From Paludibacter sp. (lineage in GTDB: Bacteria; Bacteroidota; Bacteroidia; Bacteroidales; Paludibacteraceae): a stretch of DNA of 64,000 bases. Where the stretch lies: contig JAQTTH010000004.1 in NCBI GenBank assembly GCA_028710895.1, positions 248,001-312,000 on the forward strand. Direction: 5' to 3'. Under the pieces are notes generated by a model, which saw nothing but the letters and a program-made list of their open reading frames with translations, did no database searches and was not told the DNA's origin. Position numbers and translations under genes: made by a program. This document shows, one piece after another, positions 106-23,702 of the stretch; position 1 is the stretch's first letter; each line of letters opens with the position of its first letter.

Positions 106-2505
106 TTACTCCACTTCCCATTCGAATATGCCAGCAGCATTTTTCTCTTGTAGTTTTACTTCCAATTTGAGGGCTTTGGTAACTACGGGTTTAAATAGTA
201 CTTCGTTACCCATGCCTTTTTCTACACCGTAAGCTTTGGTGTTTTCCGCCGGTTGCCATTCGCCGTTTTTGTCTTTGTAATACACTTTCCACGATTGTGG
301 TACGCGGCAACCGCCCCAGGGAGCGTCGTCGAACCAATAAACGGTGGAGCGACTAATGGTTTTCTCGGCGGCAAAATCGTACGAAATCCATTCGGTAGTG
401 CCTTCTTTTGGCCACCAATGGTAATACGGAATGCTGCGGTCATTTTCGTCTTTGGGCAGAAGTCCGTCGTTGATAGCCGAAATAGATTTAGCTTTGTGCG
501 AAGCATTTACTTTGCTTTCCGATGCCACGGTTGGAGGCATGGCCGGACGGGTAGCACTTAAATCGACCGGTAACCAAACAGCCATATCGCCACTGCCACG
601 ATGTGCCCAGGCGTAGTAAGGAATCATTGTTAGTTTCACATCCTTGGCCACCAAACGGCCTTGAACATCGTAGCTCAACGACTGCGCATCGGTTTGAATG
701 GTGTTGATTCCGTAGAGCAATTCGGGTTTGCTTTGTACGCTGAACTCCGGTTTTTTGTTTAGAATAATGCTGAAAATATTGAAGTCATTATCAGGCCATT
801 CGGCACAATAAACAATAGGCCCACGCTCAATGGCAATTTTTCCACGGTCGGCTTCCACAGCTGGATGCGCTTTTACGGTGCGTGGCTCCATATCGAAATG
901 AACCTCTACTTTATCGCCTTTTTTCCAAGTGCGATTGATGCTGAAATAGCCTTTTTCAATGGTACTTGTCACCACTATTCCATTTACTTTTACGGTATAA
1001 GCCAATGTTTTTTTATCGGTATAACTGTAAAGATTTCCCGGAACTACATCGCCTTGCACCCAACCCGGAACGCGGATTTTTAGCGTAAAGTCCTGTTTTA
1101 CTTTTGATGAAACTTCGAGGTTCACATCACCAGTCCATGGATAGTTGGTGCTTTGTGTCAATGCCACGGCCTTGCCATTTACATTCAGGTTAGAATGGTT
1201 GGCCATAAACAGATTGACATACACATCGGCATTATGCACCGCGTAAATATAACCAGGAACGGAAGGAATAAAGCGGGCAATGTTCGACGGACAACAGGCA
1301 CAACCAAACCAGGGTTGGCGTTGGTGCTGACCGATAGATTCCAATGGATTGGGGTAGAAGAAACCACCGCCATCGAGCGAAACGCCCGCAATTAGCCCGT
1401 TGTAAAGCGTGCGTTCCAACACATCAAAGTATTTGGCATCGCCATGAAGCAGGAACAAACGGTAGTTCATATACACATTGCCAATGGCAGCACAGGTTTC
1501 GCAATAGGCCGACATGTTGGGCAATTCGTAGTTTTTGCCAAATGCTTCGCCATTGCCGGTAGCGCCAATTCCACCGGTGATATAAAGTTTTTTGTTGACT
1601 ATGTTGTCCCATATGCGGTCGATAGCATGAATGTATCCGGTGTCGCCGGTAAGCGCGGCCACGTCGGCCATGCCGGTGTACATGTAGGCAGCGCGCACGG
1701 CATGACCCACCGCTTCGTCTTGTTTCACCACCGGAATGTGCGATTGACTGTATTCTTCTTTGCGGTCGGTATATCCGCGCTTGTCGAGCAGGAATTTAGC
1801 TAAGTCGAGGTAGCGTTTTTCGCCTGTCAGTACATATAGTTTACAAAGAGCCATTTCGGCAATTTGATGACCCGAAACCACTGTAATTTGTCCCGGCTTG
1901 TCGCCAATGGCGCGTGCAGCACAGTCGGCATATTTGATGGCAATGTCCAGAAAATTACGTTTCCCGGTGGCTTGATAATGTGCGATGGCACCTTCGAGCA
2001 TATGTCCGAGGTCGTACAATTCGTGGCTCAAATCTTCTTCTTTTTCCCAACGTTTGGTGCCCGACCATTCGTGTGGATGTTTAGGATTCATGGTTCGTGC
2101 GGTGTACAAATAGCCGTCGGGTTCCTGCGCTTTGGCCACAATGGTAAGCACGCTGTCGATATATTTATGCAGTTTTTTATCGGGGAAAGTTTGCATGGAA
2201 TAGCTGGCGCCTTCGATCGTTTTATACACGTCGGTGTCGTCGAACGAGAAACCTTCCACTTTATACGATTCGCTTGGGTGGGCAGCTTTTACGAAGTTTT
2301 GGTAACGTCCGGTTTCTTCGCATTTGCTGAAAGCGAGTGGAATGGTCACTTCGCGACTGGCTTTGAGGCGTTGTCCCCAGAAAGCATCGGTAACTTTTAC
2401 GGCTGTGAATGGCACCGGCGTAATGGGATATCCTGCATTTTTCTTCACTTGCGCCTGGAAACACAAGCTCAGGCTGAGTAATACGGGTAAAAATTGTTTT
2501 CGCAT
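106..2505 (-). CDS. GH127 beta-L-arabinofuranosidase-like glycoside hydrolase, secreted
   Basis: A 799-residue DUF1680/GH127 protein with a Sec signal peptide (about residues 1-18). Characterised GH127 enzymes (Bifidobacterium HypBA1) are retaining beta-L-arabinofuranosidases that use a cysteine nucleophile held by zinc through Glu-Cys-Cys-Cys. The same set is visible here: E336 and C338 in YCETCAAIGN, and C404/C405 in WFGCACCPSN. The catalytic (alpha/alpha)6 barrel covers about 30-420, beta-sandwich domains follow to about 640, and a C-terminal module of about 150 residues (WISYDFAAEKTISRSTVYW) looks like an F5/8C-type carbohydrate-binding fold. It is the last gene of the SusCD locus and 37% or so longer than the single-domain family members because of that module. 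A second GH127 with the same architecture heads the operon at 14761-17205. It may also be read from its own promoter at 2560. Exact linkage specificity is inferred, not shown. Confidence 0.9.
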   Translation of the reverse strand: MRKQFLPVLLSLSLCFQAQVKKNAGYPITPVPFTAVKVTDAFWGQRLKASREVTIPLAFSKCEETGRYQNFVKAAHPSESYKVEGFSFDDTDVYKTIEGASYSMQTFPDKKLHKYIDSVLTIVAKAQEPDGYLYTARTMNPKHPHEWSGTKRWEKEEDLSHELYDLGHMLEGAIAHYQATGKRNFLDIAIKYADCAARAIGDKPGQITVVSGHQIAEMALCKLYVLTGEKRYLDLAKFLLDKRGYTDRKEEYSQSHIPVVKQDEAVGHAVRAAYMYTGMADVAALTGDTGYIHAIDRIWDNIVNKKLYITGGIGATGNGEAFGKNYELPNMSAYCETCAAIGNVYMNYRLFLLHGDAKYFDVLERTLYNGLIAGVSLDGGGFFYPNPLESIGQHQRQPWFGCACCPSNIARFIPSVPGYIYAVHNADVYVNLFMANHSNLNVNGKAVALTQSTNYPWTGDVNLEVSSKVKQDFTLKIRVPGWVQGDVVPGNLYSYTDKKTLAYTVKVNGIVVTSTIEKGYFSINRTWKKGDKVEVHFDMEPRTVKAHPAVEADRGKIAIERGPIVYCAEWPDNDFNIFSIILNKKPEFSVQSKPELLYGINTIQTDAQSLSYDVQGRLVAKDVKLTMIPYYAWAHRGSGDMAVWLPVDLSATRPAMPPTVASESKVNASHKAKSISAINDGLLPKDENDRSIPYYHWWPKEGTTEWISYDFAAEKTISRSTVYWFDDAPWGGCRVPQSWKVYYKDKNGEWQPAENTKAYGVEKGMGNEVLFKPVVTKALKLEVKLQEKNAAGIFEWEVE

Positions 2506-2559
2506 GATAATATAGAGTTATTGGATTTTGAGCTAGAAAATAGTTTTTGTTTGAATGGC

Positions 2560-2567
2560 CAAAAGTA
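2560..2567 (-). promoter_or_regulatory. candidate -7 box for the distal GH127
   Basis: On the minus strand this reads TACTTTTG, a full match to the Bacteroidota TAnnTTTG element, about 55 bases before the ATG at 2505. No clear -33 TTG is visible, so the promoter is tentative. Confidence 0.4.
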
Positions 2568-2620
2568 ATTATTTTAAATTTATTGAAAGGAAAAATTCGT
2601 TTTATAAAGGTGGACAAAAT

Positions 2621-2658: not shown

Positions 2659-2672
2659 TAACTTCCGGCAAT

Positions 2673-4826
2673 TCATTTCTTCCGTAATTTCTTATTATCA
2701 GAATTCATAAGTTGAATAATTTCCTGACCAGTCATTGCTTTGTCGTACAAGCGGGCTGTGGCAATGTATCCGCTGAAGTTTTCGGTTGGCTCGCCGGATG
2801 CTCCAATCAGTATGTCGCCTTTTTCCACATAAAGCGAAATGGGCGTTTGGGTATTGAGTTTGCCATCCACATACACGTTTTCCAATGCACCGTCGAAAGT
2901 AACCACAATATGATGCCATTTTCCGGCTGCGGGAATTTCTTTGTAAGGCAAATCTACCGCACCATCGCCATGTGCCACCGCGCCATAATTGCCTTTGCCG
3001 TACATCAATGCCGCATAAGTGGCTTGCAACATGTTTTCGCGCGAGTTCCATACCAACAGGCATTCGCCCATTTCTACCGACGGATTATACACCCAAACGG
3101 AGGCGGTAAACGGCGAGTTCCAATCGAGGCTGGAAGGTGCTTTTTTCGACAGTTGTAAAAAGCTGTTGCCGTCGAAGAATGCTGCTTTTACACCATCAAT
3201 TACTTTTACCACCGGATTTCCATTTTTGATGAAATAACCGCCCAGCTTGCCTTTGTTCGGAATGTTGGAAACTGGTGAACCGACTTTCAGCGCATCCACA
3301 CTGAAATCGACCAACAGGCTTTGCGTACTTCGTGCTCCTAGTTCAGCCGTCGATGCCGAATTTTGAAAAGCAGGAGTTTCAAACAAGGTATCGTAAATTT
3401 TCAGGTTCCACACAGCAGGAATCATACCCGATTTTTCGGAACCGACAATTGTTAGCTTCACGTATCGGGCTGTTGCATCTTTATCGTCAATCATGGGGCT
3501 ACCGCAACGACGGTTGGTGGTTCTGTCGGCAAACAACGTCCAATGCTGGCCGTCGATAGAGGTTTCAAGCTTGTATTGGTAATAAAACGTTGGGTACTCA
3601 AACTGTGTCATCACCCGTTTCAGGTTTTGCACTTTGCCCAAATCCACCATTAACCATTGCGAAGCCGTACTATTGGCAGCTTTCCAAAGTGTTCCGTTGT
3701 TATCGTCCACCACATTTTCGGGCGAATAAATATAGTTGTAACCTGCAGGACTGTATGGAGTTGCATTGGAAGCCAAGTGATATGACGAACTGGTTGTTAC
3801 CCTAGCTTTGTAGGCCAAATTGGGCGCTGTGATTTGATTTTTGCCCAAATACCCAACTCCCGCGTGTGTGGGTAAAACCTTTTCGATAGTTATGCTATCT
3901 GAGAAAACCAGTTTATCGACACACACCTGACGAAACTCGCCATTGGTGCTGTGCGGATTATCATGACGGTGATAGACAATGTAATAGTCGTTGCCTTCTT
4001 TTAAAACTGAATGATGTCCCGGCCCATCAACGGATCCGTCGGTGTTTGTCACCAGTATTGGACTGTTTTTCCCGGGTTTAAAAGGGCCTTCGGGTTTATC
4101 GCTGACCGAATAATGCACGGCGTACGAACTCAGCCGGCAATCGCCCGAAGAATACATCAAAAAGTATTTGCCGTTTCTTTTTATCGGATAAGCTGCCTCA
4201 AACGCCTTGGGTACCTGAGCAATGGGGATGGTAGCCGTTTTGAGCAGGGAGTGCATATCTTTCGGGTCGATTTGGGCAAATCCCATGCCGCCAAACGAAG
4301 TGCACCAGGTGCCAAAATAGGAATAAATTGCCCCATCGTCGTCCACCAGAAATTGTGCATCCAGCGCCGGAAAATCTTTTTTGGACGTGCCGGCCGGAAT
4401 AACTGCCTGTCCGCCATTTACGGGTAAGAATGGCCCCATGGGCGAATCGGAAACGTAGCCGTAAATATTGCATCCCATTTCGCAGTTTCCCATGTAATAG
4501 TAATATTTTCCGTCGGCTGCCTGAAACACATCGGGTGCCCAGCAGTTGTTTAAACCCGCAGGTAATGCCAGTTTTATTTTATAGTTATACCAATTCACAA
4601 AATCTTTACTAACCCAAACTGTAGGCTCACCCGAGGCCAGTTTTATGCCGTCGGTGGTGGAGTAAATGTAATAGGTGTCGCCAAATTTGCGAATGGTAGG
4701 GTCGGCAAAATAGCCGGGTAGGAGAGGGTTGCCAGTGTTTGGCTTTGGTTGTGCATATCCGGCATCTAAGTTCAGAAAAGCTATCAGATATAATAGAGAA
4801 ATAAATCGTTTCATAATCAATTTCAT
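2673..4826 (-). CDS. GH43 alpha-L-arabinofuranosidase-like enzyme with F5/8C and LamG domains
   Basis: 717 residues with a signal peptide; the start may be the ATG at 4826 or the second ATG at 4814 (MKRFISLLYLIAFLNL), which gives a more usual signal sequence. The five-bladed GH43 propeller spans about 32-330 with the three expected acids: D42 in YFADPTI (base), D156 in PALDAQF (pKa modulator) and E210 in KAFEAAYP (acid). Residues about 340-480 form a discoidin-like (F5/8C, CBM32-type) domain and 500-700 a LamG/concanavalin-like domain. GH43 enzymes of this modular kind remove alpha-L-arabinofuranose side groups; the subfamily is not certain from reading alone. It sits between the CotH and GH127 genes, and pairing of GH43 with GH127 is common in loci for arabinogalactan or hydroxyproline-arabinosides. 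A perfect -7 box at 4880 suggests an internal promoter whose transcript would begin with the hairpin at 4841-4868. Confidence 0.88.
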   Translation of the reverse strand: MKLIMKRFISLLYLIAFLNLDAGYAQPKPNTGNPLLPGYFADPTIRKFGDTYYIYSTTDGIKLASGEPTVWVSKDFVNWYNYKIKLALPAGLNNCWAPDVFQAADGKYYYYMGNCEMGCNIYGYVSDSPMGPFLPVNGGQAVIPAGTSKKDFPALDAQFLVDDDGAIYSYFGTWCTSFGGMGFAQIDPKDMHSLLKTATIPIAQVPKAFEAAYPIKRNGKYFLMYSSGDCRLSSYAVHYSVSDKPEGPFKPGKNSPILVTNTDGSVDGPGHHSVLKEGNDYYIVYHRHDNPHSTNGEFRQVCVDKLVFSDSITIEKVLPTHAGVGYLGKNQITAPNLAYKARVTTSSSYHLASNATPYSPAGYNYIYSPENVVDDNNGTLWKAANSTASQWLMVDLGKVQNLKRVMTQFEYPTFYYQYKLETSIDGQHWTLFADRTTNRRCGSPMIDDKDATARYVKLTIVGSEKSGMIPAVWNLKIYDTLFETPAFQNSASTAELGARSTQSLLVDFSVDALKVGSPVSNIPNKGKLGGYFIKNGNPVVKVIDGVKAAFFDGNSFLQLSKKAPSSLDWNSPFTASVWVYNPSVEMGECLLVWNSRENMLQATYAALMYGKGNYGAVAHGDGAVDLPYKEIPAAGKWHHIVVTFDGALENVYVDGKLNTQTPISLYVEKGDILIGASGEPTENFSGYIATARLYDKAMTGQEIIQLMNSDNKKLRKK

Positions 4827-4840
4827 TTAAAAGTCAAGAG

Positions 4841-4969: not shown

Positions 4970-6298
4970 CTATCTGATTCCTTCCGGATAATTAGCTATG
5001 ATACCCGATAGGTAGCTGACCCTGTTTGTTAGCCATAATTTCATATGCTGAATTTCGGTCGCATAATTTTTATCTATTGGCCAACGCATGGCATTGTGGG
5101 CCATGGCACTGGCAGTACCATCGGCGTAATATTGTGTTGTTTTCCAATAGTTGCTCATAATTTTATCCTTAATGGCGAGCCATCGGGTTTTATATTCAGT
5201 CACGAATCGTTTGCTTCGGAACATATCGGTGAAAAATGAAGGTACAGCATAACCTTTGGTATGATTTACCGGGTCTGTTCCAAGTACCAACTCCTTATAA
5301 CTTGTAAAATAGTTGTGTCCGGTATACATTGTCGACCAATCAAAATCGAACCCGGCATCAAAATCCCAAAGTGGCCCAAAAATCCATTTTCCGCCATTAT
5401 TTTTATATAAATAAATGCTGCGTGGAGCATCTACTTCTACATTGTAAACCAGTTCCTGAATGAGCATGTAGTCAATAAACGAATGTATATCCAATAGTTT
5501 ATCAACATCATCATAGTTTCCGGTTTTCATAGCATTCTCCAACAACGCAAAATCACTCTGAATCGTTGCAATTTGCGTGATGGAAGTAATTTCGGGGCTT
5601 TTTACACATACCGGCATTCGATAACCGGTCGACCAAAAGTTGTCTCCACCACTTGGGTTCAGTTCCGGCCCATCATCGGCATCGAGCGATAATAATACCC
5701 CTTCTTTGGAATCAATGGCTACACGATTACTACCTTGTTCTACCTGCTCTGTGAGTAAATATAATCCAATATTATCATCGTTTAAGGTTACTTCCACAAA
5801 ACGTGAATGATTTGTATATGGAAGCCCGAGTCCTTGTCCTACAGTAAACACAAAGGTATTCATCAATTGAGTCGGGTCGCGGTAGCTGGCCAGCAAAACC
5901 CAATCTTTTTCAGATTTTAAACCCAGAATCTCTGCTTTACTATCCAATTTTATCCGATACGGCTTTTTGGGGTACCATAGCCAGGTAGAGTTGCCTCTTC
6001 CCCGTATGCCGCCCGTGCCGGTATAGTTCCAGTCACTTCTTCCCGATTTCAAAGTAACTGTACATTTCACATAGGTCTCGCGCGAATCTATCGGAAGTTT
6101 ATTTTCCGTGGAAATATTCAGTTTGGCAACCAGAAAACTGTCCTTTAATGCAGCAGTCAAGGTATCAACAGGTACAACTTTCGTTGTATCTGTTGATATT
6201 TTTCCCCCGGTGTTTTTCCCTGGCTCGTCGTTTTCGGCGCAAGCTGTAAACAAAATCAGAATAGAAAAAAAGAGAATAGGTATAAAATGTGATTTCAT
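4970..6298 (-). CDS. CotH kinase family lipoprotein
   Basis: A 442-residue lipoprotein (lipobox ending LFTAC, C20), so likely outer-membrane anchored and possibly surface exposed. It has the hallmarks of the CotH family: RGRGNSTW and YPKKPYRIKL near the N-terminus, GLYLLTEQVEQ in the middle, and the acidic GPLWDFDAGFDFD segment that carries the metal/active-site aspartates. CotH of Bacillus is an atypical protein kinase that phosphorylates spore-coat proteins; in Bacteroidota the family often appears as a lipoprotein beside PULs and the substrate is unknown. The gene follows the metallopeptidase-like gene after only 7 bases and belongs to the SusCD operon. Its role in glycan or glycoprotein use here is inference from position. 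Confidence 0.85.
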   Translation of the reverse strand: MKSHFIPILFFSILILFTACAENDEPGKNTGGKISTDTTKVVPVDTLTAALKDSFLVAKLNISTENKLPIDSRETYVKCTVTLKSGRSDWNYTGTGGIRGRGNSTWLWYPKKPYRIKLDSKAEILGLKSEKDWVLLASYRDPTQLMNTFVFTVGQGLGLPYTNHSRFVEVTLNDDNIGLYLLTEQVEQGSNRVAIDSKEGVLLSLDADDGPELNPSGGDNFWSTGYRMPVCVKSPEITSITQIATIQSDFALLENAMKTGNYDDVDKLLDIHSFIDYMLIQELVYNVEVDAPRSIYLYKNNGGKWIFGPLWDFDAGFDFDWSTMYTGHNYFTSYKELVLGTDPVNHTKGYAVPSFFTDMFRSKRFVTEYKTRWLAIKDKIMSNYWKTTQYYADGTASAMAHNAMRWPIDKNYATEIQHMKLWLTNRVSYLSGIIANYPEGIR

Positions 6299-6305: not shown

Positions 6306-8354
6306 TTACTTTATCGTAACATTGAATATAAATGTCACCTGATATTGTTTTGCAGCTTTGGTATATACAAATGCTTCTTTGATTGTATATTTATCGCCGG
6401 CTTTGCTTTTTCCGGGATATTGGCCTATGGTAAACTCAAAATTAGCTGGCACAAGTTCGGCAAATAATTTGCTGTCGTTTGTACCTCCCCAGCCAATTAC
6501 ATTACCCGTACTATCAAACCAGAATCCATAACCGTTTGCTGTAGTATTGTAGTTCAGTGCACCTGACGATTCTGCTGCTGCAAAGGCAATTTTACCCTCT
6601 GCAGGTAAGGCTTTTGCGGCAAGCAATGCAGCTGAAATGGCTGAAGGTTGCATAACCAGTGCCTGAGCTACTTTGGCAATATCTCCGTTTGAATTCAGAC
6701 TGACTGTGGCTCCTGAATAAGCTGCTGCATCGGCTGCAAATGACAGGTTATAGGTCAATGTCAGGTCTTTTGGAGTGTCATTAGGATTGATGGTGATATT
6801 ACCCAGTAAATCGGTATTTGTAAACTTAACCGAATAAGGCCATTGATCATCGTCACTTTCTTTTTCGTCCCAGGCGGAGGGAGTGTAGCTGGATGGTGCT
6901 CCCAGTACAACCAACCACAGATTTTTGCAATTGGCAGGTACTGTGAATTGTACATCACCAGCCGTTTTTCTGTTCATATCACCATATACCCGCTGGCCAC
7001 TGTTCAGTAATGCAACGTAGCCATATCGCCAACCGGCACGTGTAAGTGAACTGCTGTTGTATTTGGTCGTTGTAAGGGTTTTCCCATCTTCGGAATATTG
7101 TCCGGGATCACCTGCAGCCAATGCTGAACCCGGAGTCAGAGCTGTAAATGTGGTTGTAATCACGGTACCGGCAGCCGGAACGTTGAGTGGAATTACATTA
7201 TAACCGCTGGTGCCGGGACATTTACTGTAAGCTACCTGATATGTTCCATCAGCTTGTTGGTAGAATTTATAAGTGTGTTTTCCAATGTAGTTTGCTCCAT
7301 TTGCCCTAATGGCATCCAAATCCCATGTAACCAATTTTGTTGCCATCTCGTATAGCTGAGCATTTATCTGGTCTACAGAAAGTCCCTGCAAACGCATATG
7401 CGTCTGAATTGGATCTTCAGGGCTTTTGGATTCACGCCAAATCCTGCCAATGTATTCAATTCCGTATTTATCAGCCAGGTAATAGTGAATAAAATAGCTT
7501 GCATACCGTTGCCATTCGTGACCTATATGGCGATGATAGTTATCCATATAAACGCCAAAATTATAAGAATCGAATGCCTGTAATGGGTACGACTGATAAG
7601 ATTGCCACTGAGCAGTTTGCTCCCAAAAACCATTGCCTCCATTTCCACCATATCCGTATCTGAAACCGTGTGTGTAATCGTTGGTTATAGTTCCTCTGGC
7701 TAATAAATCGGCATATACCTGATATTGAAAACTATGACCGATTTCGTGAGCAATTGTTGAACCAACGGGTTTACATGTTCCCGGATTAACCCACAACGCA
7801 CCAATCACATCATCATATCCACTACCGGTTGCCAACCATTCGGTTTGGTAAAGCAGGTATATCTCCATTTTATATTTATCCAGATTTGATTTGCCAACTC
7901 CCACTTCTGCAAACTTCAGCTTGTTAACATTCATATCGTAAAATTCTTCAGCCCGCAGGAGTAAATCGTCAATATCAATGCGCATTGCATCGGGAACGGT
8001 TGTGGCATTGGGGTTGCTACCAAATCCGGCTTCCCAAAACACAATGAAGTGTGTGGATTGTTTGCTTCGTACAAACGACCATTTGCTATCGCTGCGGAGC
8101 ATATCCATCCCTTTAAATTCCTGCGGTTTATAATACTTATCGTAATCTTTAATATCGGTTGGTTTAAGAATGACCACTTTTGATGAATCTGTGGATGCTG
8201 TATCAGTTTTACCCGGTTTTATGTCTTTGTCCGACCCGCAGGCAACCAAAGTAAAAGAGGTAGCTCCCATCAGGGAGCAGAGAAAGAGGAAAGAAAAGCA
8301 TAAGCCGAAAAATCCCGGCTTATGCATTTTTGAACTATTGTGAATCATTTTCAT
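6306..8354 (-). CDS. HExxH metallopeptidase-like lipoprotein (DUF6055-type) with C-terminal DUF4859 domain
   Basis: 682 residues, lipoprotein with C39 after TLVA; ATGs at 8354, 8348 and 8327 are all possible starts. Residues about 90-420 resemble the secreted DUF6055/zincin-like family: IAHEIGHSFQYQ supplies HExxH (203-207) and GFWEQTAQW supplies a likely third ligand (E245), a gluzincin arrangement. Residues about 545-682 form a DUF4859 domain (FWFDSTGNVIGWGG ... IGQYPGKSKAGD), the same module that occurs three times in the next gene upstream. The gene lies 6 bases after that DUF4859 gene and 7 before CotH, so all three are co-transcribed with SusCD. Peptidase activity has to be tested; the HExxH is intact. 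If active it would cut the protein part of a surface-bound glycoprotein. Confidence 0.75.
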   Translation of the reverse strand: MKMIHNSSKMHKPGFFGLCFSFLFLCSLMGATSFTLVACGSDKDIKPGKTDTASTDSSKVVILKPTDIKDYDKYYKPQEFKGMDMLRSDSKWSFVRSKQSTHFIVFWEAGFGSNPNATTVPDAMRIDIDDLLLRAEEFYDMNVNKLKFAEVGVGKSNLDKYKMEIYLLYQTEWLATGSGYDDVIGALWVNPGTCKPVGSTIAHEIGHSFQYQVYADLLARGTITNDYTHGFRYGYGGNGGNGFWEQTAQWQSYQSYPLQAFDSYNFGVYMDNYHRHIGHEWQRYASYFIHYYLADKYGIEYIGRIWRESKSPEDPIQTHMRLQGLSVDQINAQLYEMATKLVTWDLDAIRANGANYIGKHTYKFYQQADGTYQVAYSKCPGTSGYNVIPLNVPAAGTVITTTFTALTPGSALAAGDPGQYSEDGKTLTTTKYNSSSLTRAGWRYGYVALLNSGQRVYGDMNRKTAGDVQFTVPANCKNLWLVVLGAPSSYTPSAWDEKESDDDQWPYSVKFTNTDLLGNITINPNDTPKDLTLTYNLSFAADAAAYSGATVSLNSNGDIAKVAQALVMQPSAISAALLAAKALPAEGKIAFAAAESSGALNYNTTANGYGFWFDSTGNVIGWGGTNDSKLFAELVPANFEFTIGQYPGKSKAGDKYTIKEAFVYTKAAKQYQVTFIFNVTIK

Positions 8355-8360: not shown

Positions 8361-9824
8361 TTATTGAGCTGTAACGTTGAAAGTTATGTTGAGCGTGGCA
8401 GAGCCGCCGTTGTAAGTTGCAATCAGTTTTGTTACAACGCTGCTACCAGCTACACCATTATCGGGATGATTACCACCGAATACGTATAACTCTGTTTCGC
8501 TATGTCCGATACTACACCAAACCAAACCCTGAGCCCAGGCACCAGGCGTACCGTCTGCTTTTATCCAATAACCGGGTGCATCGGCTGTATAAGCAGGTGC
8601 GGTTTCGGTTACACTACCCTCATACAATTTAAGATCGCCGGATAAAATAGCCTGATGAATCTGATAGGTTGTTTTTTTGAATGCATCGCGAAGAAAATCT
8701 TTGATATCCACTTTCACACTTGCGTAGTCGTTGCTATAAACCTTGCTCATGCTTATACTTTTCTCAACGGCTTTTGGGTCTCCCGGAAGAGGTGTTTCAG
8801 GGTCCTGATATGATTTGACATTGATTTTTATTTTCAGCATAACAATTTTGTTATTCGCCATCAAACCATACTGAATTGTAAGTGTTTGTCCACCTTTTAA
8901 GTGACTAGGAAACTGTCCAACACCAATTTTATCATCCATAAAAATACCAGTCGAAGCATATACGCTGGCACTATCTCCCCAAGCTCCAACAAATCCATTC
9001 ATATCATACCAGAATCCTTTAGGATCAGCATTGGTTTCCTGATTATAACTACCATCCGGATTTAGTCCAATAATCTTCACATCCCCGATAGAACTTACAC
9101 CCAGGTCGCTCAATGCCTGTGCCAGATTAAACTGAACCGAATCTGCATCGTAGGTACTTTTGGCTAAAACATCAAGAGTAAGGTCCTGAGTTCGAACGAT
9201 TGGTGCTGTAATTTTGCCCGGAGCTTTTGCATGAATAGTAATAATAACGGCCGCACGTTTTTCGTTGTATTTCAGGCATTCAATAATCTTCAGAGTCTGT
9301 CCATCTGTCAAATGACCCGGATACTGACCAACGCCAAAGGCACCTGTCTCTGTGTTGAATTCAGCGAATACCATAGCAGTTGTTCCCCAGGTTGTAACAT
9401 CTCCATTAGTATCCCACCAGTGTCCCCATGGAGCATTTGTGTTGGTTGCAGTTCCTAAATCTTCGTGAGTTGAGCCCTGGATAGCAAAGCCTTTAATTTC
9501 AAGTGCTCCACTTTCGCCGGCTATACCGGCTACGAGTTGTTCTTTGGTTATTCCAAAGAGTGTCGCAATTGAATCCATGCTGATAGCCACTGTTGTACCA
9601 TCATACGAACTTTGACTAATGGTTATATCGGCGTTGTATTTAAGTATCAGGTTGGCATTTACTCCGGTCAATTGAGCTTCTTTGATTGAATCCTGACGAG
9701 CCATTTCAGCTTTTTCTGCATCGGTAAGAAAATGTAGTTTGCTGAAATCGAAGTTGTCTCCGCAACTAACAAGTCCTGTCATTAGTAACGACAGAAATGT
9801 AATGTATAAATATATTTTTTTCAT
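8361..9824 (-). CDS. surface lipoprotein made of three DUF4859 domains
   Basis: 487 residues; lipobox GLVSC (C21). After a short linker the protein is three copies of a module of about 135 residues (about 62-195, 200-335 and 345-487). Each copy shows an S-x-Y-x3-T/S-V start, a W/F-Y/W-D/K-xx-G-x5-WG turn and a GQ/GxxP[GS]H-type loop; the third copy is the most diverged. It stands directly downstream of SusD, the position usually taken by a surface glycan-binding protein (SusE/SusF-like), and repeated beta modules would suit such a role. DUF4859 has no established function known to me, so glycan binding is inferred from position and architecture. Its last copy's relative is fused to the peptidase-like protein next door. 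Confidence 0.75.
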   Translation of the reverse strand: MKKIYLYITFLSLLMTGLVSCGDNFDFSKLHFLTDAEKAEMARQDSIKEAQLTGVNANLILKYNADITISQSSYDGTTVAISMDSIATLFGITKEQLVAGIAGESGALEIKGFAIQGSTHEDLGTATNTNAPWGHWWDTNGDVTTWGTTAMVFAEFNTETGAFGVGQYPGHLTDGQTLKIIECLKYNEKRAAVIITIHAKAPGKITAPIVRTQDLTLDVLAKSTYDADSVQFNLAQALSDLGVSSIGDVKIIGLNPDGSYNQETNADPKGFWYDMNGFVGAWGDSASVYASTGIFMDDKIGVGQFPSHLKGGQTLTIQYGLMANNKIVMLKIKINVKSYQDPETPLPGDPKAVEKSISMSKVYSNDYASVKVDIKDFLRDAFKKTTYQIHQAILSGDLKLYEGSVTETAPAYTADAPGYWIKADGTPGAWAQGLVWCSIGHSETELYVFGGNHPDNGVAGSSVVTKLIATYNGGSATLNITFNVTAQ

Positions 9825-14760: not shown

Positions 14761-17205
14761 TTATTTTACTTTCCATTCCAATACTCCGCCCGATTCACCT
14801 TTTTGGAGCTTAGCTTCAATTTTTAGTCCGGTTGTTTTCACCGGTTTGAAGTTCAGACTGTTGTAGCAGTCTTTCAGCGTAGTGTATGGCTCGGTGGTTT
14901 CTACTTGTTTCCAGTCGTTTCCGGCTTTGTAATATAGTTTCCAGCTTTCGGGTACCCGGAAATTGCCGTCGTACTGGTCAATGTCGAGCCAGTAAACCTG
15001 CACGTTCGACACCGTTTCTTCTTTTTCGAATTCGTAGGCAAGCGTTTCGGGCGTTCCCCGCTTCATCCACCAGTAATGGTATGGCTTGGATATGTCCGAC
15101 GAGCTTTGTGGTTCCCATTGGTCGTTCACTCCCCAGGTTGGTTCTTCGGGCGATGCAATAAGCGTTGCGCCGGTTTGGATGGGAGCTTTTATCACCATGG
15201 TTTGTGCTTTGGAGGCAATGGTTGGCTCGGGAGTTGGGCGTGCCGCTTCGGCTTTCACCGGAATCCAAACGGCCATTTCGTTGGCACCGCGGTTTTGCCA
15301 GGTGGAGTAAGGAATGGCGGTGAACGGTACATCTTTCTGAACAACGCTATTTCCGTCATTTTCCAATTGGCGAGCCGTTCCGCTAAGCACCATCACGCCA
15401 TTGAGCAAGTCTTTGTTGAATTGAAAACTAATAGGCGCATTTTCAGGAATAAATTTGTTGAATACATGTTTATCGGCCTGGTCGGCACCTTCGATGCAAT
15501 ACATGATAGGCCCACGTTCGATAGCCATTTTGCCTTTGTCGTCAGCCACTTTATCGTTGGCTTGTATGCGGCGCACGGGCATTGGCAGTGCCAATTCCAC
15601 GCGGTCGCCTTTTTTCCACTGGCGGTTGATGGTGATATAACCTTTGTCTTTGGTGGTGGCAACAGCTTTGCCATTTACCAATACCTGAACGGGAGTTGTA
15701 AGTTTGTCGGCAAACGCATATAAATCGGTTGGGACAGGACTATTCTCAGCCCAGCCCGGAATGCGAAGTTTGAGTGCAAATGCGATTGATTTTGCCGGAT
15801 TTACGGTGATAGCCACTTTGCCATCCCACGGATACTCCGAAACCTGTTTCAGTTCCACGTTGTTTTTCTGAACAGCAATGTTGGCTGTGCTTTGGCAGTA
15901 TAGGTTTACGAATAAATCGTTGCCCAAAACGGCATAAGTATAACTCGGAACCGAAGCCACAAAACGGGTGATATTGCCCGGGCAACAAGCGCAACCAAAC
16001 CAGGCCTGACGCTCGTGCTGACCGGAAGATTCGAGCGGATTGTCGTAGAAAAACTTATTGCCGCTCAGCGAAACGCCCGAAATCACACCGTTGTACAGTG
16101 CCCGTTCCAATACGTCGATATATTTGGCATCGCCGGTGGCCAGAAACATACGTTCGTTCCAATACACATTGGCAATGGCGGCGCAGGTTTCGCAGTACGC
16201 TTGTTGGTTGTGCAGTTCGTAGTTTGGTCCGAAGCCTTCGCCCTGAGCGCGTGAACCGATTCCGCCGGTGATGTAGAGTTTTTTCGAAGCCATATTGTCC
16301 CAAATGCGGGTCAAAGCCTCAAAATAGGCGGCGTCGTTGGTCAAAGCTGCCACATCGGCTACTCCCGAGTACAAATATCCGGCCCGCACAGCGTGACCTT
16401 TGATTTCGTCTTGTTTGAGAATGGGTATGTGATCCTGGCTGTATTCATTCAGGTGGTGACCGTCGGTTCCACGTCCGGTTTCTTCTACAAAATACTTAGC
16501 CATAGCCAGGTAGTTGGCATTGCCGGTGACTTTGTAAAGTTTTGCCAATCCCATTTCTACAATGGGGTGACCCGATGGACGGTGAATTTGTCCGGCGTTT
16601 GGCCCGAATACTTTGCAAACCAAATCGGCATTTTTGATGGCTACATTGAGCAAGGTACGTTTTCCGGTAGATTGGAAATGCGCCACAGCTGCTTCGTACA
16701 AGTGGCCTGAATTGTATAACTCGTGGCTGTTTATTTTTTCCCAACGGGCTTTTCCCCACCAACCGCTGAGGCGGGCGCATTTGTTGGTAACGCATGTGGT
16801 GATATACCCATCAGGCTCTTGTGCTTTGGCTATCAAATTAATTACGCTGTCCAGATATTGATCCAGCTTTTTGTCGTATTTAGCCGCCAACGAGTAGGAA
16901 GCACCTTCAATGATTTTATAAGGATCGGTGTCGTCGAACGGAAAATCACCTTTATGCTCGCCTTTAATAAGTCCGCCTGCAAGTGCAAAATTATCGAACC
17001 GGCCATTTTTCTCACATTCATTAAATGCTGATGGAATGGAAATGGTGCGGTTTATCTCGATGCGTGGCGACCAGAACTGATCGGTGAAATGTACCTTGTT
17101 GAAAGGCACTTGAAAGATAGTTTGTTTTTGTTGTTTTTGAGCAGAAGCAGTAAGCAGAACTGCAGATGCTAGTGCCAAAGCAGAGACGTAGAAACGGATT
17201 TTCAT
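14761..17205 (-). CDS. GH127 beta-L-arabinofuranosidase-like glycoside hydrolase, operon head
   Basis: 814 residues from the ATG at 17205; the codon two before it is TTG and is not needed. Signal peptide about 1-22 (ALASAVLLTASA). Catalytic barrel to about 425 with the zinc-cysteine set of GH127: E339 and C341 in YCETCAAIAN, C407/C408 in FGCACCPGN. The C-terminal part ends in the same extra beta module as the GH127 at 106-2505 (YHYWWMKRGTPETLAYEFE), so the two are paralogues of the same architecture but well diverged, suggesting different linkages or steps. It is the first gene of the SusCD operon, unusual since susC normally leads, and its promoter carries the operator module described at 17237-17304. 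Confidence 0.9.
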   Translation of the reverse strand: MKIRFYVSALALASAVLLTASAQKQQKQTIFQVPFNKVHFTDQFWSPRIEINRTISIPSAFNECEKNGRFDNFALAGGLIKGEHKGDFPFDDTDPYKIIEGASYSLAAKYDKKLDQYLDSVINLIAKAQEPDGYITTCVTNKCARLSGWWGKARWEKINSHELYNSGHLYEAAVAHFQSTGKRTLLNVAIKNADLVCKVFGPNAGQIHRPSGHPIVEMGLAKLYKVTGNANYLAMAKYFVEETGRGTDGHHLNEYSQDHIPILKQDEIKGHAVRAGYLYSGVADVAALTNDAAYFEALTRIWDNMASKKLYITGGIGSRAQGEGFGPNYELHNQQAYCETCAAIANVYWNERMFLATGDAKYIDVLERALYNGVISGVSLSGNKFFYDNPLESSGQHERQAWFGCACCPGNITRFVASVPSYTYAVLGNDLFVNLYCQSTANIAVQKNNVELKQVSEYPWDGKVAITVNPAKSIAFALKLRIPGWAENSPVPTDLYAFADKLTTPVQVLVNGKAVATTKDKGYITINRQWKKGDRVELALPMPVRRIQANDKVADDKGKMAIERGPIMYCIEGADQADKHVFNKFIPENAPISFQFNKDLLNGVMVLSGTARQLENDGNSVVQKDVPFTAIPYSTWQNRGANEMAVWIPVKAEAARPTPEPTIASKAQTMVIKAPIQTGATLIASPEEPTWGVNDQWEPQSSSDISKPYHYWWMKRGTPETLAYEFEKEETVSNVQVYWLDIDQYDGNFRVPESWKLYYKAGNDWKQVETTEPYTTLKDCYNSLNFKPVKTTGLKIEAKLQKGESGGVLEWKVK

Positions 17206-17425: not shown

Positions 17426-17427
17426 AA

Positions 17428-19383
17428 TCACGGGTGTATTTTATTATTTATTGGCAATTGAACTTCGGTGAAAAAGCGTAGCAGGAAAGCATACATTTCC
17501 GGGTCGTAGTTCTTTAGTTTTTCGCGGCGGTTTATTTCTCCGTGTACGCCATTCACCGGATTGGCCCAGCGGTTGCAATTGAAAAACGATTGCACACACT
17601 CCGCAAAATATTCTTCTTTGTTGGTCATGGCGTAGGTGTTTTTCCACAGTCCTTTGGCTCTGGCTTTGTCCATAAGACCCTGTGATTTTTCGTTGAAATC
17701 GGGGTATAATTTAGTCAGTGCGGCGGTATGGATGATGTGCGAAAATTCGTGTACCAATATATTTTCACCTTCGTATCTGTCACCAAGCAGGCATATCAGA
17801 TTTTCTTCGCCACAGCTCGCTGTTGGGCGGTTGATTCCGGTATCGTCGCCAAGTCCGCGTGCCCGTTTGTTCCAATACGCTATCGAGTCGGGCGACGAGC
17901 AAATGTCGGCATACTCCGGTATATCGCATGTTTGTTCGTTGGCTCCGAGAATCATTACATAGCTTTTGCGGTCGGTGAGTGCTTTCAGAATTTCTTTTTT
18001 AGCAAGCATGGCTTCTAAAATTCCGGCAGCGGTTTTTAGCGCTTCGTCGTTTACCTGTGCCGAACTAACTACCGGAATACCGCTGGCATCCACATACTTT
18101 TTATAAAACTTATTCATGTTCAATGAACCCGGCACTTCGCTCACCGTTCTGGCTTTTCGGTTCAACGCCAGGCGAACCATCAGCACGCCATGAGCCGGTA
18201 TTTTCTGATTCATTATTGCGTTGGTTGTACCAATCATTTTGTGTTTCCACAAATCACGAACAGCGTATTCGTTTTTGTTGATATTTATATCGGTGGCAAA
18301 ATACATGGTATTCTTTTTCCAATCATAATTCAAATTCCATTCTTCGTCGGTACGGTTCAGGAAGCACACAGCAATTTCGTTATTATCAAGCGGTTTGGCC
18401 CAAATTTCCCGTTCGCCCATGTCCATAAACCGAATGGCCTGTTGCCCCAGTTTGTCCTGATTGACAGCTATTACCTCTTTGTTGGTCAAAATCTCCCGTG
18501 TTTCGGCGCTCATGCTACGCAGGTCATTTCCGGCCATAAGCGGTGCGGCCAACATGCCCCACATGCTCATGTGCGTAACATATTCGTCGTAGGTCATATC
18601 GCCGTTGCCAATTTCAAGCATTTCGGCATCGTTCCAGTGTCCGGGGCCTGCGTAGGGATACAAATCGGCGACAGCATCAATAATATTCAATACACCCACG
18701 CCGCCCCAGTCGAATTTACACTGAAAACAGTCGCGAATATCGGGTGTGGTGCGCCACAAGTGGCCAATGCCTTTTCCCCATTTCCAGGGTTGGTTTTCGC
18801 CCCACTCGCAAATGCTGAACACAATAGGTCGGCCGCACACTTTCAGCGCGTCGCTCATGGTTTTGTAAGCGGCTTCGGCATTTTGACCTTCGCTGGAGCA
18901 CCAGTCGTATTTCAGGTAGTCGACGCCCCATTTGGCATACTGGCGTGCATCCTGAAACTGGTATCCGCGACTTCCCGGACGGCCCTGACAGGTAAGTGAT
19001 CCGGCGCAGGAGTAAATTCCAAGTTTAAGGCCTTTGCTGTGAATATAATCCGAGAGTACCTTGATACCGTGAGGGAAATTGGTTGAATCGGCCACAATGT
19101 TGCCGTCTTTGTCGCGATTCACCTGCCAGCAATCGTCAATAACAATGTACTCGTACCCGGCATCTTTCATTCCGGAGCTGACCATGGCATCGGCCATTTC
19201 CATGAGTAATTTTTCGTTTATGCGGCACCCGAATTTATTCCAGCTGTTCCAACCCATGGGCGGAGTGGCTGCTAATGCATAAAAAACCGAGTCGGTATGA
19301 GTTTGTTGGGGGGTGTTTTGGGCATTTAATGCTGTAGGTAGCCATGCCACAGAGAGCAATAGGATTAGAATTTTGAATTTCAT
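17428..19383 (-). CDS. GH27 alpha-galactosidase fused to a C-terminal gluzincin-type metallopeptidase domain
   Basis: 651 residues with a signal peptide (about 1-22). Residues 35-405 are a full GH27 alpha-galactosidase / beta-L-arabinopyranosidase: PPMGWNSWNKFG, nucleophile D160 in YLKYDWC, acid/base D215 in WRTTPDIRD, and a beta domain ending HGVLMVRL. A second domain (about 420-651) carries LVHEFSHIIH (HExxH at 545-549) and NKEEYFAECVQSFF, where E591 or E595 is the likely third zinc ligand. The EEYFAE helix recalls the anthrax-lethal-factor/Pro-Pro endopeptidase clan, but that link is inference. Plain GH27 enzymes end near residue 400, so the extra 230 residues are notable. The gene faces the HTCS at 19662 and shares the operator module of the SusCD operon. 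A glycosidase and a peptidase in one chain suggests a glycoprotein substrate. Confidence 0.85.
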   Translation of the reverse strand: MKFKILILLLSVAWLPTALNAQNTPQQTHTDSVFYALAATPPMGWNSWNKFGCRINEKLLMEMADAMVSSGMKDAGYEYIVIDDCWQVNRDKDGNIVADSTNFPHGIKVLSDYIHSKGLKLGIYSCAGSLTCQGRPGSRGYQFQDARQYAKWGVDYLKYDWCSSEGQNAEAAYKTMSDALKVCGRPIVFSICEWGENQPWKWGKGIGHLWRTTPDIRDCFQCKFDWGGVGVLNIIDAVADLYPYAGPGHWNDAEMLEIGNGDMTYDEYVTHMSMWGMLAAPLMAGNDLRSMSAETREILTNKEVIAVNQDKLGQQAIRFMDMGEREIWAKPLDNNEIAVCFLNRTDEEWNLNYDWKKNTMYFATDININKNEYAVRDLWKHKMIGTTNAIMNQKIPAHGVLMVRLALNRKARTVSEVPGSLNMNKFYKKYVDASGIPVVSSAQVNDEALKTAAGILEAMLAKKEILKALTDRKSYVMILGANEQTCDIPEYADICSSPDSIAYWNKRARGLGDDTGINRPTASCGEENLICLLGDRYEGENILVHEFSHIIHTAALTKLYPDFNEKSQGLMDKARAKGLWKNTYAMTNKEEYFAECVQSFFNCNRWANPVNGVHGEINRREKLKNYDPEMYAFLLRFFTEVQLPINNKIHP

Positions 19384-19661: not shown

Positions 19662-22600
19662 ATGGAAATGAAGAAATATACAAGGCTGATAATGTTGATA
19701 TGGATGGCTTTTGCTGTTCAGCTTATGTGGGGTGGCACGTTGAGCTTTCGTCATTATACGGTTGAAGATGGCCTGAGTTACAATACCGTATCAAGTATTA
19801 TTCAGGATCGGCACGGATTTATGTGGATTGGTACCGAGAACGGACTAAACCGCTTCGATGGATATAGTTTCAGAGAGTACCGCTCGGCACGTACCGGAAA
19901 AAACGCTATGATAACCAACCTCATAACCAGTCTGCTTGAGGATGCTTCGGGTACTATCTGGATTGGTACCGATGTAGGTATTTATACTTTCAACCCGTCG
20001 AAAGAAGAATTTGAACATTTTACAATGAAGGCCGCCGATGGTTCTGTAATTAATACAACCATAAATAATATCGTATCGGACCGGTTGGGTTGTATGTGGA
20101 TTTCGACCTACGGGCAGGGGGTTTTTTCATACAATCCCAGGTCAAAAAGGCTCGACCAGTACAATGTACTTATCGAGGGTATGAGTTCCAATCGTTTCGA
20201 CCAGGTGAATCAGGTTTATGTCGACAAAAATAACAATGTGTGGGCTGCTTCCAAAGCTCCTGAAAATCCGTTACTGCGTTTCGACAGACGGAGTGGAAGT
20301 TTCCGGTCGTTTCCGGTACAGCATAAAAACTTCACCGTATATAAATTTTTTGAGGATTCGCAGCATAATTTTTGGTTGGGTACCTGGAGCAGGGGCATTT
20401 GCAAGCTAAACACCAACACAGGCGAAGTTGTATCCTATTTGTCAGCCGATGCACCCGGAGGCATTTTACACATCCACGAAATCAACGAATATAAACCGGG
20501 GATGTTGCTTATCGGCTCCGATGATGGATTGAGTTTGTTTAATATCAACACGCTATCTCACCAACTATTCAGACCAAACGAATCGGACCCTGCATCTATT
20601 TCCGATAAATTTATCTATCCTATTTTCAAAGATCATGAAGGTGGATTCTGGATTGGAACTTACTTTGGCGGACTCAATTATTTATCCACAAACAGCGGGC
20701 TTTTCGGACGTTATTCGCACTCACGCTATGCAAATTCGGTGAGCGGAAATGTGGTGGGTAGGTTTGCCGAGGACAAGCGTGGCAATATCTGGATAGCTAC
20801 CGACGATGGAGGACTAAATGTATTGAATACGGCAACAGGGACTTTTTCGGCCTACCTGCCCGGCACCGGAAGCAATAGTCTTTCGTACCACAATGTTCAT
20901 GCATTGTGCTGGGACGACGACTTGTTGTGGATAGGTACTTACTCGGGTGGATTGAATGTGCTGAACACCAAAACAGGTAAATTTAAATTGTATAATTCCA
21001 CCGACAAAAATCCGCGTACGCTCGATGGTGGAAGTATTTATGCCATTTTTAAAGATAACGCTAACCGTATCTGGGTAACAAGTATGTCGGGGGTAAATCT
21101 TTACAACCGCACCACCGATGATTTTACCCGAATCAAAAAATTTGATGTAACAACTATCGATATCAGGCAGGATAAAAAGGGCTTTATCTGGTTTGCCACA
21201 CAGGGCAAGGGCATTTACCGGCTCGACCCCCTCAGTGGTAAATGGAAAAATTACAGCAGTGCCAACACCGAAGCCGGCAGCATCCCCAACAATCAGATTA
21301 ACTGCATTGCCTTCGACCAAACCAACACCATGTGGATAGGAACAGCCAATGGCTTGTGTCAATACAATGCTAACACCGATAAGTTCAGCACGGTTGATAT
21401 CAACATTCCGAGCCGGGTTATTTGTAGCATCATTCCGGTGGGCAATAATCTGTGGCTTACTACTTCCAAAGGACTCATTCGCTACAATGTTGCGGATAAA
21501 TCGTTCCAGATTTTCACGCGGAGCGATGGGTTGATGAGCGACCAGTTTATTGTTAATTCCGGCTTTCAAAGTTCCAATGGCACTATTTACATTGGCACTG
21601 CCTGCGGTTTTAATGCGTTTAACCCGGCCCATCTCAATCAAAATACCCATATCCCGTCGGTGGCAATTACAGGCCTCGAGATTTTCAATAAAGAGGTGGA
21701 AGTGAGTGAAGATGGTCCACTCAAAATGGCCATTGGCAACAGCAAAGAGATAAACCTCACATACAAGGATAATGTGTTCAGCCTCAGTTTTGTGGCTTTG
21801 AGCTATGTAACCCCCGAGAAAAACAAATATGCCTATAAACTCGATGGTTTCGACCACGACTGGAATGTGGTGTCGCTTCAGCACAAAGTGACTTATACCA
21901 ACCTCCCCGCTGGCGAGTACACGTTCAGGGTAAAAGCAGCCAATAACGATGGGTGCTGGAACAACGAGGGCACGCAGATTAAAATAATTATCCATCCACC
22001 GTTTTGGCTTACAATCTGGTTTAAAATTCTGTACTTCATACTTTTTGTGTTTGCGGCGGTTATGCTTGTTCGCTATTTGAAACACCGCACCGAGCAACGC
22101 CATAACGAAGAAATTAAGGAGTTGAGTCAACAAAAGGAAAAGGAGATATACAATGCCAAGATTCAGTTTTTCACCATGGTGGCCCACGAAATACGCACAC
22201 CTGTTTCGCTGATTATTGGCCCGCTCGAAAAAATACTGACGAACAATGCCCTGTTTCCGCAGGCAGTAAACAACGATTTGAATATTATCGAACGAAACAG
22301 TCAACGATTGCTCCAATTGGTCAATCAGTTACTCGATTTTCGAAAAGTAGAACAAGGATCACTTGTTTTAAATCCGTCCGCCCAGCATATCTACAGTTTG
22401 CTGAACAATGTTTGCGAACGTTTTATACCCATTTTCGAGCAAAATCATATCCGTTTCAGCTTTTTATGTCCCGATATGCATTTTCAGGCCGAAGTTGATC
22501 CGGAAGCTATTACCAAATCGGTTAGCAACCTGCTTACCAATGCACTTAAATATACCCGCGATAGCATAAAACTGACCTGTCGGAAAAGCGATATCGATAA

Positions 22601-23702
22601 TACCTTCGAAATTTGTGTACAGGACAACGGAAATGGCATTGCCGACAGCGAAAAAGAGAAAGTCTTCGATCCGTTCTACCAGATTCCGGGAAGCAGTAAA
22701 CAGGGCACTGGTATCGGACTTTCGTTGGTAAAAAGCATTGTAGAAGGTCATAAAGGCAAAGTTACAGTGTCTGACTCCCCCAATTCAGGTGCGACTTTTT
22801 GCCTCGTGCTTCCACTTACTTCCGACATAAGCCGGAGTGATGAAGGTGAGCCTGCTATCAACTTCAGTCCCGAACACGACATCCTTCCGGAAGTTGAACC
22901 CCCCCCCATACAGTCTCCGGAAAAGCTCAAACAGACTCCTGCACTGCTTATTGTGGAGGACAATGATGATATGCGTAATTTCCTGGCCGATAATTTCAGG
23001 GACGAATACAGCGTATTCACAGCCAATAATGGTTTGGAGGGGCTTGCTTGTCTGAAAAATACAGAAGTAAACCTCATTATAAGCGACCTGATGATGCCCG
23101 AAATGGATGGACTTGAGTTCTGTCAGGCTGTGCGCAGCAATTACCTCTACAGCCACATTCCATTTGTGCTGCTAACGGCTAAAACCGATCTGGACACAAA
23201 AATTGAAGGACTTAATTTTGGGGCCGATTCATATATCGAAAAGCCATTCTCGATTCATTATCTCAAGGCGCAGATAAACAACCTGATTGAATCGCGGCGT
23301 ATGCTTCGGAAGAAATATTCCCAAATGCCGGTAACGCCTATTACCACCATTGCCGGTAATGCTTCCGACGAGTTGTTCCTGACTAAAATGAATGAGATCA
23401 TTGAAAAAAATATCTCCAACGAAGCTTTCAGCATCGACCAGTTGGCCGAAGAATTATTCATCAGCCGGTCGGGTCTTTTTTCTAAGATAAAAATGTTGGC
23501 AGGCATCACGCCCAACGAACTTATCCAACTTGTGCGACTTAAAAAGGCAGCTGCTTACATCTCGCAACATGATTACCGGATTAATGAAATTGCCTATTTG
23601 GTTGGTTTCAATAATCCATCGTATTTTTCAAAGTGCTTTCAAAAACAATTTGGAATGACGCCTAAAGAATTCGAAAATCACCAAAAACAAACATTAAAAT
23701 AA
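19662..23702 (+). CDS. hybrid two-component system regulator (HTCS) of the SusCD locus
   Basis: 1346 residues. An N-terminal signal/anchor is followed by a periplasmic sensor of two seven-bladed propellers built from Reg_prop repeats (GFMWIGTENGLNRFDG and many like it, about 30-680) and a Y_Y_Y domain (about 690-775). One membrane helix (about 779-809) leads to a histidine kinase (H in VAHEIRTPVSLIIGP near 842, HATPase near 950-1060), a receiver domain with phospho-acceptor D in LIISDLMMPEMDG (about 1141), and a C-terminal AraC-type helix-turn-helix (about 1246-1346). HTCS proteins sense an oligosaccharide in the periplasm and bind the PUL promoters. It is divergent from the GH27 gene and followed by the operator copies described. 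All conserved catalytic motifs are intact. Confidence 0.95.
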   Translation: MEMKKYTRLIMLIWMAFAVQLMWGGTLSFRHYTVEDGLSYNTVSSIIQDRHGFMWIGTENGLNRFDGYSFREYRSARTGKNAMITNLITSLLEDASGTIWIGTDVGIYTFNPSKEEFEHFTMKAADGSVINTTINNIVSDRLGCMWISTYGQGVFSYNPRSKRLDQYNVLIEGMSSNRFDQVNQVYVDKNNNVWAASKAPENPLLRFDRRSGSFRSFPVQHKNFTVYKFFEDSQHNFWLGTWSRGICKLNTNTGEVVSYLSADAPGGILHIHEINEYKPGMLLIGSDDGLSLFNINTLSHQLFRPNESDPASISDKFIYPIFKDHEGGFWIGTYFGGLNYLSTNSGLFGRYSHSRYANSVSGNVVGRFAEDKRGNIWIATDDGGLNVLNTATGTFSAYLPGTGSNSLSYHNVHALCWDDDLLWIGTYSGGLNVLNTKTGKFKLYNSTDKNPRTLDGGSIYAIFKDNANRIWVTSMSGVNLYNRTTDDFTRIKKFDVTTIDIRQDKKGFIWFATQGKGIYRLDPLSGKWKNYSSANTEAGSIPNNQINCIAFDQTNTMWIGTANGLCQYNANTDKFSTVDINIPSRVICSIIPVGNNLWLTTSKGLIRYNVADKSFQIFTRSDGLMSDQFIVNSGFQSSNGTIYIGTACGFNAFNPAHLNQNTHIPSVAITGLEIFNKEVEVSEDGPLKMAIGNSKEINLTYKDNVFSLSFVALSYVTPEKNKYAYKLDGFDHDWNVVSLQHKVTYTNLPAGEYTFRVKAANNDGCWNNEGTQIKIIIHPPFWLTIWFKILYFILFVFAAVMLVRYLKHRTEQRHNEEIKELSQQKEKEIYNAKIQFFTMVAHEIRTPVSLIIGPLEKILTNNALFPQAVNNDLNIIERNSQRLLQLVNQLLDFRKVEQGSLVLNPSAQHIYSLLNNVCERFIPIFEQNHIRFSFLCPDMHFQAEVDPEAITKSVSNLLTNALKYTRDSIKLTCRKSDIDNTFEICVQDNGNGIADSEKEKVFDPFYQIPGSSKQGTGIGLSLVKSIVEGHKGKVTVSDSPNSGATFCLVLPLTSDISRSDEGEPAINFSPEHDILPEVEPPPIQSPEKLKQTPALLIVEDNDDMRNFLADNFRDEYSVFTANNGLEGLACLKNTEVNLIISDLMMPEMDGLEFCQAVRSNYLYSHIPFVLLTAKTDLDTKIEGLNFGADSYIEKPFSIHYLKAQINNLIESRRMLRKKYSQMPVTPITTIAGNASDELFLTKMNEIIEKNISNEAFSIDQLAEELFISRSGLFSKIKMLAGITPNELIQLVRLKKAAAYISQHDYRINEIAYLVGFNNPSYFSKCFQKQFGMTPKEFENHQKQTLK

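Follow-up and report, generated by a model that had tools for sequence, protein, structure and literature searches.

A Paludibacter SusCD locus predicted to use both the sugar and the protein of extensin-type glycoproteins

Within a 64,000-nucleotide stretch of a Paludibacter sp. genome (assembly GCA_028710895.1, 4.9 Mb in 41 contigs; contig JAQTTH010000004.1, positions 248001-312000; hereafter the window), a SusCD locus probably targets a hydroxyproline-rich glycoprotein (HRGP) of the extensin type and uses both its sugar and its protein, a reading to which we assign a probability of about 0.7. The observations consist of the genes present, the folds predicted for their products, conserved catalytic residues and synteny; activities, cellular locations and substrate are inferred from these. 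A Pfam scan places nine genes in the same direction on the minus strand (106-19383), with three adjacent pairs separated by just 6-13 bp, and a divergent gene for a hybrid two-component sensor/regulator (HTCS, 19662-23702). In order of transcription, the nine encode a GH27-gluzincin fusion, GH127b, SusC, SusD, a triple-DUF4859 lipoprotein, a DUF6055-DUF4859 lipoprotein, a CotH-like protein, GH43 and GH127a. A SusC/SusD pair accompanied by two GH127, one GH43, one GH27 and a linked HTCS constitutes a SusCD-type polysaccharide utilization locus (PUL). The two GH127, the GH43, the GH27-gluzincin and the HExxH lipoprotein named in a preliminary description of this DNA are all present at their positions; the CotH-like and triple-DUF4859 lipoproteins, the DUF6055 family and the fold of the GH27 C-domain are new here.

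The glycosidases suggest which linkages may be cleaved. The hydroxyproline (Hyp) tetraarabinoside Ara4-Hyp has the structure Araf-alpha1,3-Araf-beta1,2-Araf-beta1,2-Araf-beta-Hyp (Araf, arabinofuranose), on which GH43 acts first in Xanthomonas (PMC6085000, in part), and extensin serine bears alpha-galactose (PMC13164431, in part). The activities predicted for the single GH43, the GH127 pair and the GH27 correspond to the Ara4-Hyp and Ser-Gal linkages. Both GH127 proteins contain the Pfam catalytic domain and the conserved Glu/Cys motifs (YCETCA/GCACCP at 334/401 in GH127a and 337/404 in GH127b). The GH27 part is most similar to the alpha-galactosidase 6f4c (350 bits) and retains the motifs YLKYDWC and RTTPDIRD, which presumably carry catalytic roles, while the best PDB matches of GH43 (5msx, 159 bits; 3qz4, 112 bits) do not set its subfamily, HypAA-type or other. 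The preliminary description had likened these enzymes to HypBA1 and HypAA of Bifidobacterium longum; among solved structures, however, GH127a is nearest to 6ex6 (1133 bits), with HypBA1 (3wkw) far behind at 339 bits, and GH127b scores 668 bits against 6ex6. The HypBA1/HypBA2/HypAA system and its Xanthomonas homologues direct a beta-L-arabinofuranosidase and a GH43 at Hyp-linked arabinosides (PMC6085000, in part). Unlike that system, the window has two GH127 and adds peptidases, GH27 and SusCD, and a domain scan of the ten locus proteins reported no GH121 (HypBA2) domain; GH127a reaches 28 bits against the HypBA2 model NF041578 (cut-off 3200), touching only its F5/8 tail.

The first of two putative peptidases is the DUF6055 lipoprotein, whose family membership is clear (PF19527, 537.8 bits against a curated cut-off of 27) and whose H203-E204-x-x-H207 motif and third-ligand position E245 are invariant in a 56-row alignment. 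Its sequence suggests a distant relationship to the Svx/AvrXca peptidases of Pectobacterium, Dickeya and Xanthomonas. The score against the Svx/AvrXca equivalog model NF040510, 80 bits, is far under the cut-off of 625, so we treat the protein as a relative and not a member. As to the acyltransferase-like C-terminal domain of Svx, the best-matching stretch extends to position 458 in a model of 601, and the domain that Pfam reports toward the C-terminus of the window protein is DUF4859. Unlike Svx, the window protein is a lipoprotein within a SusCD locus, carries DUF4859 after the peptidase part and spaces HExxH and Glu by 37 residues versus 22 in Pba Svx. For the Svx carbohydrate-site residues W136, G137 and N171, a simple register drawn from HExxH and Glu, rather than a residue-level alignment, puts Ser at the position of W136 and Gln at that of N171. 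Recombinant Pectobacterium Svx degrades carrot extensin; its second domain is needed for this and has been proposed, from docking, to recognize arabinan chains (PMC13164431, in part).

The second putative peptidase is the C-domain of the GH27 protein, which shares its predicted fold and its catalytic residues with Pro-Pro endopeptidases (PPEPs) and is predicted to cleave between prolines. H545, E546, H549, Y584 and E591 (HExxH, oxyanion Tyr and Zn-binding Glu) are invariant in 17 of 17 sequences. Since Pfam ATLF (PF07737) scores 21.9 bits, below its curated cut-off of 27.4, we class the domain as PPEP-like and not as PPEP. Relative to PPEP-1, -2 and -3 (ATLF, M34-like), it is 17-23% identical in the aligned part and differs in being fused to an alpha-galactosidase. 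Other genomes carry fusions of the domain to GH97, seen in P. plebeius (locus L023), B. mediterraneensis (L045), P. vulgatus ATCC 8482 (L069) and loci L104 and L130, and one to dipeptidyl peptidase IV (DPP IV) in L019; in most remaining loci it stands free at ~265-300 aa. The one GH97 compared with solved structures, that of L069, matches retaining alpha-galactosidases best (3a24, 664 bits; 5e1q, 662 bits), with the best alpha-glucosidase at 191. The separate joining of a proline-type endopeptidase to two glycosidase families containing alpha-galactosidases would be expected for a Ser(Gal)-Hyp4 substrate.

GH127 and DUF6055 lie close together more often than chance allows. Across 296 genomes of the phylum, 10 full-length DUF6055 places score above 300 bits, and 6 of them have a GH127 (PF07944 match, E<=1e-20) within 15 kb, where 0.17 were expected and no random placement out of 20,000 simulated gave as many. 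Above 440 bits the fraction is 6/7. Three of the six genomes share one genus and are thus not independent. The places lacking a nearby GH127 are the second copy of the source genome and those of three 2.4-2.6 Mb genomes of a single genus (G113, G136, G144). The DUF6055 proteins of the latter are distant (24-26% identity in L109 and L110); in L109 and L110, which come from G136 and G144, they are encoded outside any PUL, near what by eye is a putative DNA polymerase III alpha gene.

We then mapped the neighborhoods of the best 80 of 184 DUF6055 relatives (66 of the 80 loci span at least 21 kb), labeling genes by tblastn at E<=1e-15 and 30% query cover (an earlier labeling used E 1e-8). SusC was found in 62 loci, GH127 in 36, GH43 in 28, and GH27 or GH97 in 9; DPP IV or aminopeptidase P (APP) appeared in 20, with several DPP IV labels (L062, L070) standing on 21-22% identity. 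The PPEP-like domain occurs in 12 loci, and all 12 contain GH127. DUF5695 (PF18951, ~900 aa) adjoins DUF6055 in 19 loci (e.g., L009:13998-16700) and is absent from the window; it is a candidate enzyme of the same system.

At least two Hyp-catabolism genes occur in 5 of these 80 loci. All seven 4-hydroxyproline epimerases tested (L064, L105, L106, L108, L071, L030 and L062) exceed the NF010578 cut-off, while the DadA-like dehydrogenase, DapA-like protein and aldehyde dehydrogenase are assigned from general models below cut-off and gene order. In L105 and in L106-L108 (three genomes, one genus), Hyp genes are accompanied by DPP IV, by APP-like proteins and by DUF6055. L105 additionally has an M1-type peptidase and GH97; L106 and L107 have a long GH127, GH43 and DUF5695, and L106 also a DUF885 protein. 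An amino-acid permease gene that separates DPP IV from the Hyp-catabolism genes in L106 (L106:4003-5418) encodes a possible hydroxyproline importer.

The Svx relationship, the PPEP-like fold and residues, and the DPP IV, aminopeptidase P and occasional Hyp pathways of related loci together point toward an extensin-type target. They lend support to the proposal of the preliminary description that an extensin-like or arabinogalactan glycoprotein is taken apart with peptidases for the protein part. In the mechanism we envisage, the DUF6055 lipoprotein would cut the glycosylated rod at the cell surface, the DUF4859 domains and the triple-DUF4859 lipoprotein would hold the arabinosides, and glycopeptides would be imported through SusCD. 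In the periplasm, GH43 would remove terminal alpha-1,3-Araf, both GH127 would remove beta-1,2-Araf and Hyp-bound beta-Araf, and GH27 would take alpha-Gal off Ser, after which the fused PPEP-like domain could cleave Pro/Hyp-Pro/Hyp bonds of the bared Ser-Hyp4 core. The HTCS would sense a released sugar.

Several observations weigh against this proposal. The Svx match lies far under the equivalog cut-off and leaves the C-terminal part of Svx uncovered, and the ATLF score of the GH27 C-domain misses its threshold. Neither DPP IV nor APP was found in the window operon, and no Pro_racemase match was found in the source genome, so sugar and peptide use in this organism may proceed with no Hyp breakdown of that kind. 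DUF6055 proteins of the Hyp-gene loci are 52-59% identical to that of the window (L030, L062, L064, L070, L071) or just 23-32% (L105-L107), and GH127 in these loci is unlabeled in the stretch examined or distant (identity of 24-25% with GH127a and 31% with the long L019 GH127). Among the 80 DUF6055 loci, 37 showed neither GH127 nor DPP IV/APP nor Hyp genes. Used alone as a query, the PPEP-like C-domain hits 13 of the 296 phylum genomes at E<=0.001 and only 4, the source genome included, at E<1e-20. At the order level (393 genomes, E<=1e-20), 15 genomes matched, again including the source; the other 14 hold 16 places, mapped as 15 loci (L140 covers two). Eight of the 15 have GH127, DUF6055, DPP IV or APP nearby, some labels resting on 27-31% identity and several contigs ending early; seven have none of these, so the domain is not confined to this system.

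The nearest relative of GH127a also bears on the choice of glycoprotein, as 6ex6 (1133 bits) is, we take it, BT3674 from the arabinogalactan PUL of B. thetaiotaomicron. An arabinogalactan protein (AGP) of gum arabic or wood, which also contains Hyp, therefore stays a real rival: GH127 and GH43 would trim Araf caps, GH27 would remove alpha-Gal on Araf and the peptidases would open the core. Hyp is contiguous in extensins and spaced in AGPs, and a PPEP-like domain suits the former better. The primary substrate of BT3674-87 is listed as arabinogalactan (PMC3243724, in part). Unlike that PUL, the window locus contains peptidases and a single GH43, and the domain scan of its ten proteins recognized no other family for a galactan backbone, glucuronate or rhamnose (no galactanase, GH43 subfamily aside, and no glucuronidase or rhamnosidase). 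With extensin degraded by Svx as well (PMC13164431, in part), we consider an AGP target unlikely.

A protein-free pectic glycan, such as arabinan or rhamnogalacturonan I (RG-I) side chains, with peptidases that are incidental or serve wall protein generally, appears improbable. Related GH146 beta-L-arabinofuranosidases do act on arabinan-derived glycans (PMC10850190, in part), and the second DUF6055 gene of the genome adjoins GH28 and pectic acid lyase genes. Against such a substrate stand two dissimilar gluzincins in one operon, each recurring with GH127, the fusion of the PPEP-like domain to alpha-galactosidase types and the neighboring Hyp-catabolism genes of relatives. Least probable by our estimate is another Hyp protein, whether a green-algal wall HRGP or an animal collagen-like protein: many of the 80 DUF6055 loci belong to genera of marine or soil Bacteroidota and 44 showed no GH127, yet this beta-L-arabinofuranosidase family, present in the window and 36 of the loci, would be pointless on collagen, and an algal HRGP would be a mere variant of the extensin-type target.

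Returning to that target, we tentatively propose, at slightly less than even odds, a family of HRGP-utilization loci across Bacteroidota, including the human-gut species P. vulgatus (ATCC 8482). In this family, a PPEP-like Hyp-Hyp/Pro-Pro endopeptidase would be repeatedly fused to alpha-galactosidases (GH27, GH97), combining Ser-Gal removal and Ser-Hyp4 cutting in one enzyme; DUF6055 would be a surface extensin glycopeptidase; and in some lineages a single locus would cover the pathways for sugar, peptide and hydroxyproline. Among the matches listed in the open-licence PubMed Central literature, no Bacteroidota locus joins such sugar and peptide activities and none treats breakdown of the protein part of extensin by gut and soil Bacteroidota; "Pro-Pro endopeptidase" and "extensin" together gave no match there, and DUF6055 was met in one paper. 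In the walls of food plants, extensins are proteins joined by cross-links. If correct, the proposal would supply a set of enzymes for breaking down a recalcitrant part of the wall, suggest functions for DUF6055 and DUF4859, and name the type strain P. vulgatus ATCC 8482, whose locus L069 resembles that of the window in its genes, as a test organism. A prediction for Latescibacteria similarly assigned GH127 to extensin and general peptidases, including S9 and M24, to wall protein (PMC4454575, in part); it consists of whole-genome inventories, and the part of that work covered describes no locus, PPEP, DUF6055 peptidase or linked Hyp catabolism.

The features of the locus are collected in Table 1. 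By eye, the DUF6055, triple-DUF4859, CotH-like and SusD-like proteins have lipobox-like N-termini, and the glycosidases have ordinary Sec signals. Downstream neighbors on the same contig, also read by eye, resemble housekeeping genes, and the end of the locus was thus placed near 106.

Table 1. Genes of the SusCD locus, in window coordinates, with predicted products
Feature	Position	Strand	Basis or remark
GH127a, beta-L-arabinofuranosidase, F5/8 C-like tail, Sec signal	106..2505	-	PF07944, 425 bits
GH43 with F5/8 type C and LamG, predicted alpha-L-arabinofuranosidase	2673..4826	-	PF04616, 148 bits
CotH-like lipoprotein	4970..6298	-	PF08757, 152 bits; lipobox-like FTAC
DUF6055 gluzincin peptidase with DUF4859, lipoprotein, predicted surface endopeptidase for HRGP	6306..8354	-	PF19527, 537.8 bits
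Lipoprotein with three DUF4859 domains, predicted surface glycan-binding	8361..9824	-	PF16151, 170 bits, 3 stretches; lipobox-like LVSC
SusD-like lipoprotein	9904..11607	-	PF07980, 81 bits; ATG at 11607 taken as start
SusC-like TonB-dependent transporter	11621..14722	-	PF00593, PF07715, PF13715; ATG at 14722 taken as start
GH127b, second beta-L-arabinofuranosidase, Sec signal	14761..17205	-	PF07944, 373 bits
GH27 alpha-galactosidase (~residues 36-405) fused to PPEP-like gluzincin domain (~420-651)	17428..19383	-	PF16499, 260 bits
HTCS	19662..23702	+	Reg_prop, Y_Y_Y, HisKA, HATPase_c, Response_reg, HTH_18

Elsewhere in the genome, the second DUF6055 protein (1102 aa; L102:11579-14887, C14:373376) weakly matches a type IX secretion tail, and its position beside GH28 and pectic acid lyase probably marks another wall-degrading cluster. 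A glycyl-radical enzyme (L112:1072-3426; C3:191396-193180) scores 261 bits against the HypD model (cut-off 1100) and has a Sec-like N-terminus, odd for a cytosolic radical enzyme. The genome has five strong GH127-type matches; one of them, with DUF4986 and DUF6805, is also encoded in the window (51722-55219), near an NPCBM-melibiase protein (58584-61418). At 44601-50975 lies a gene for a 2124-aa RHS-repeat/SpvB-like protein with FG-GAP repeats, whose architecture resembles that of polymorphic toxins.
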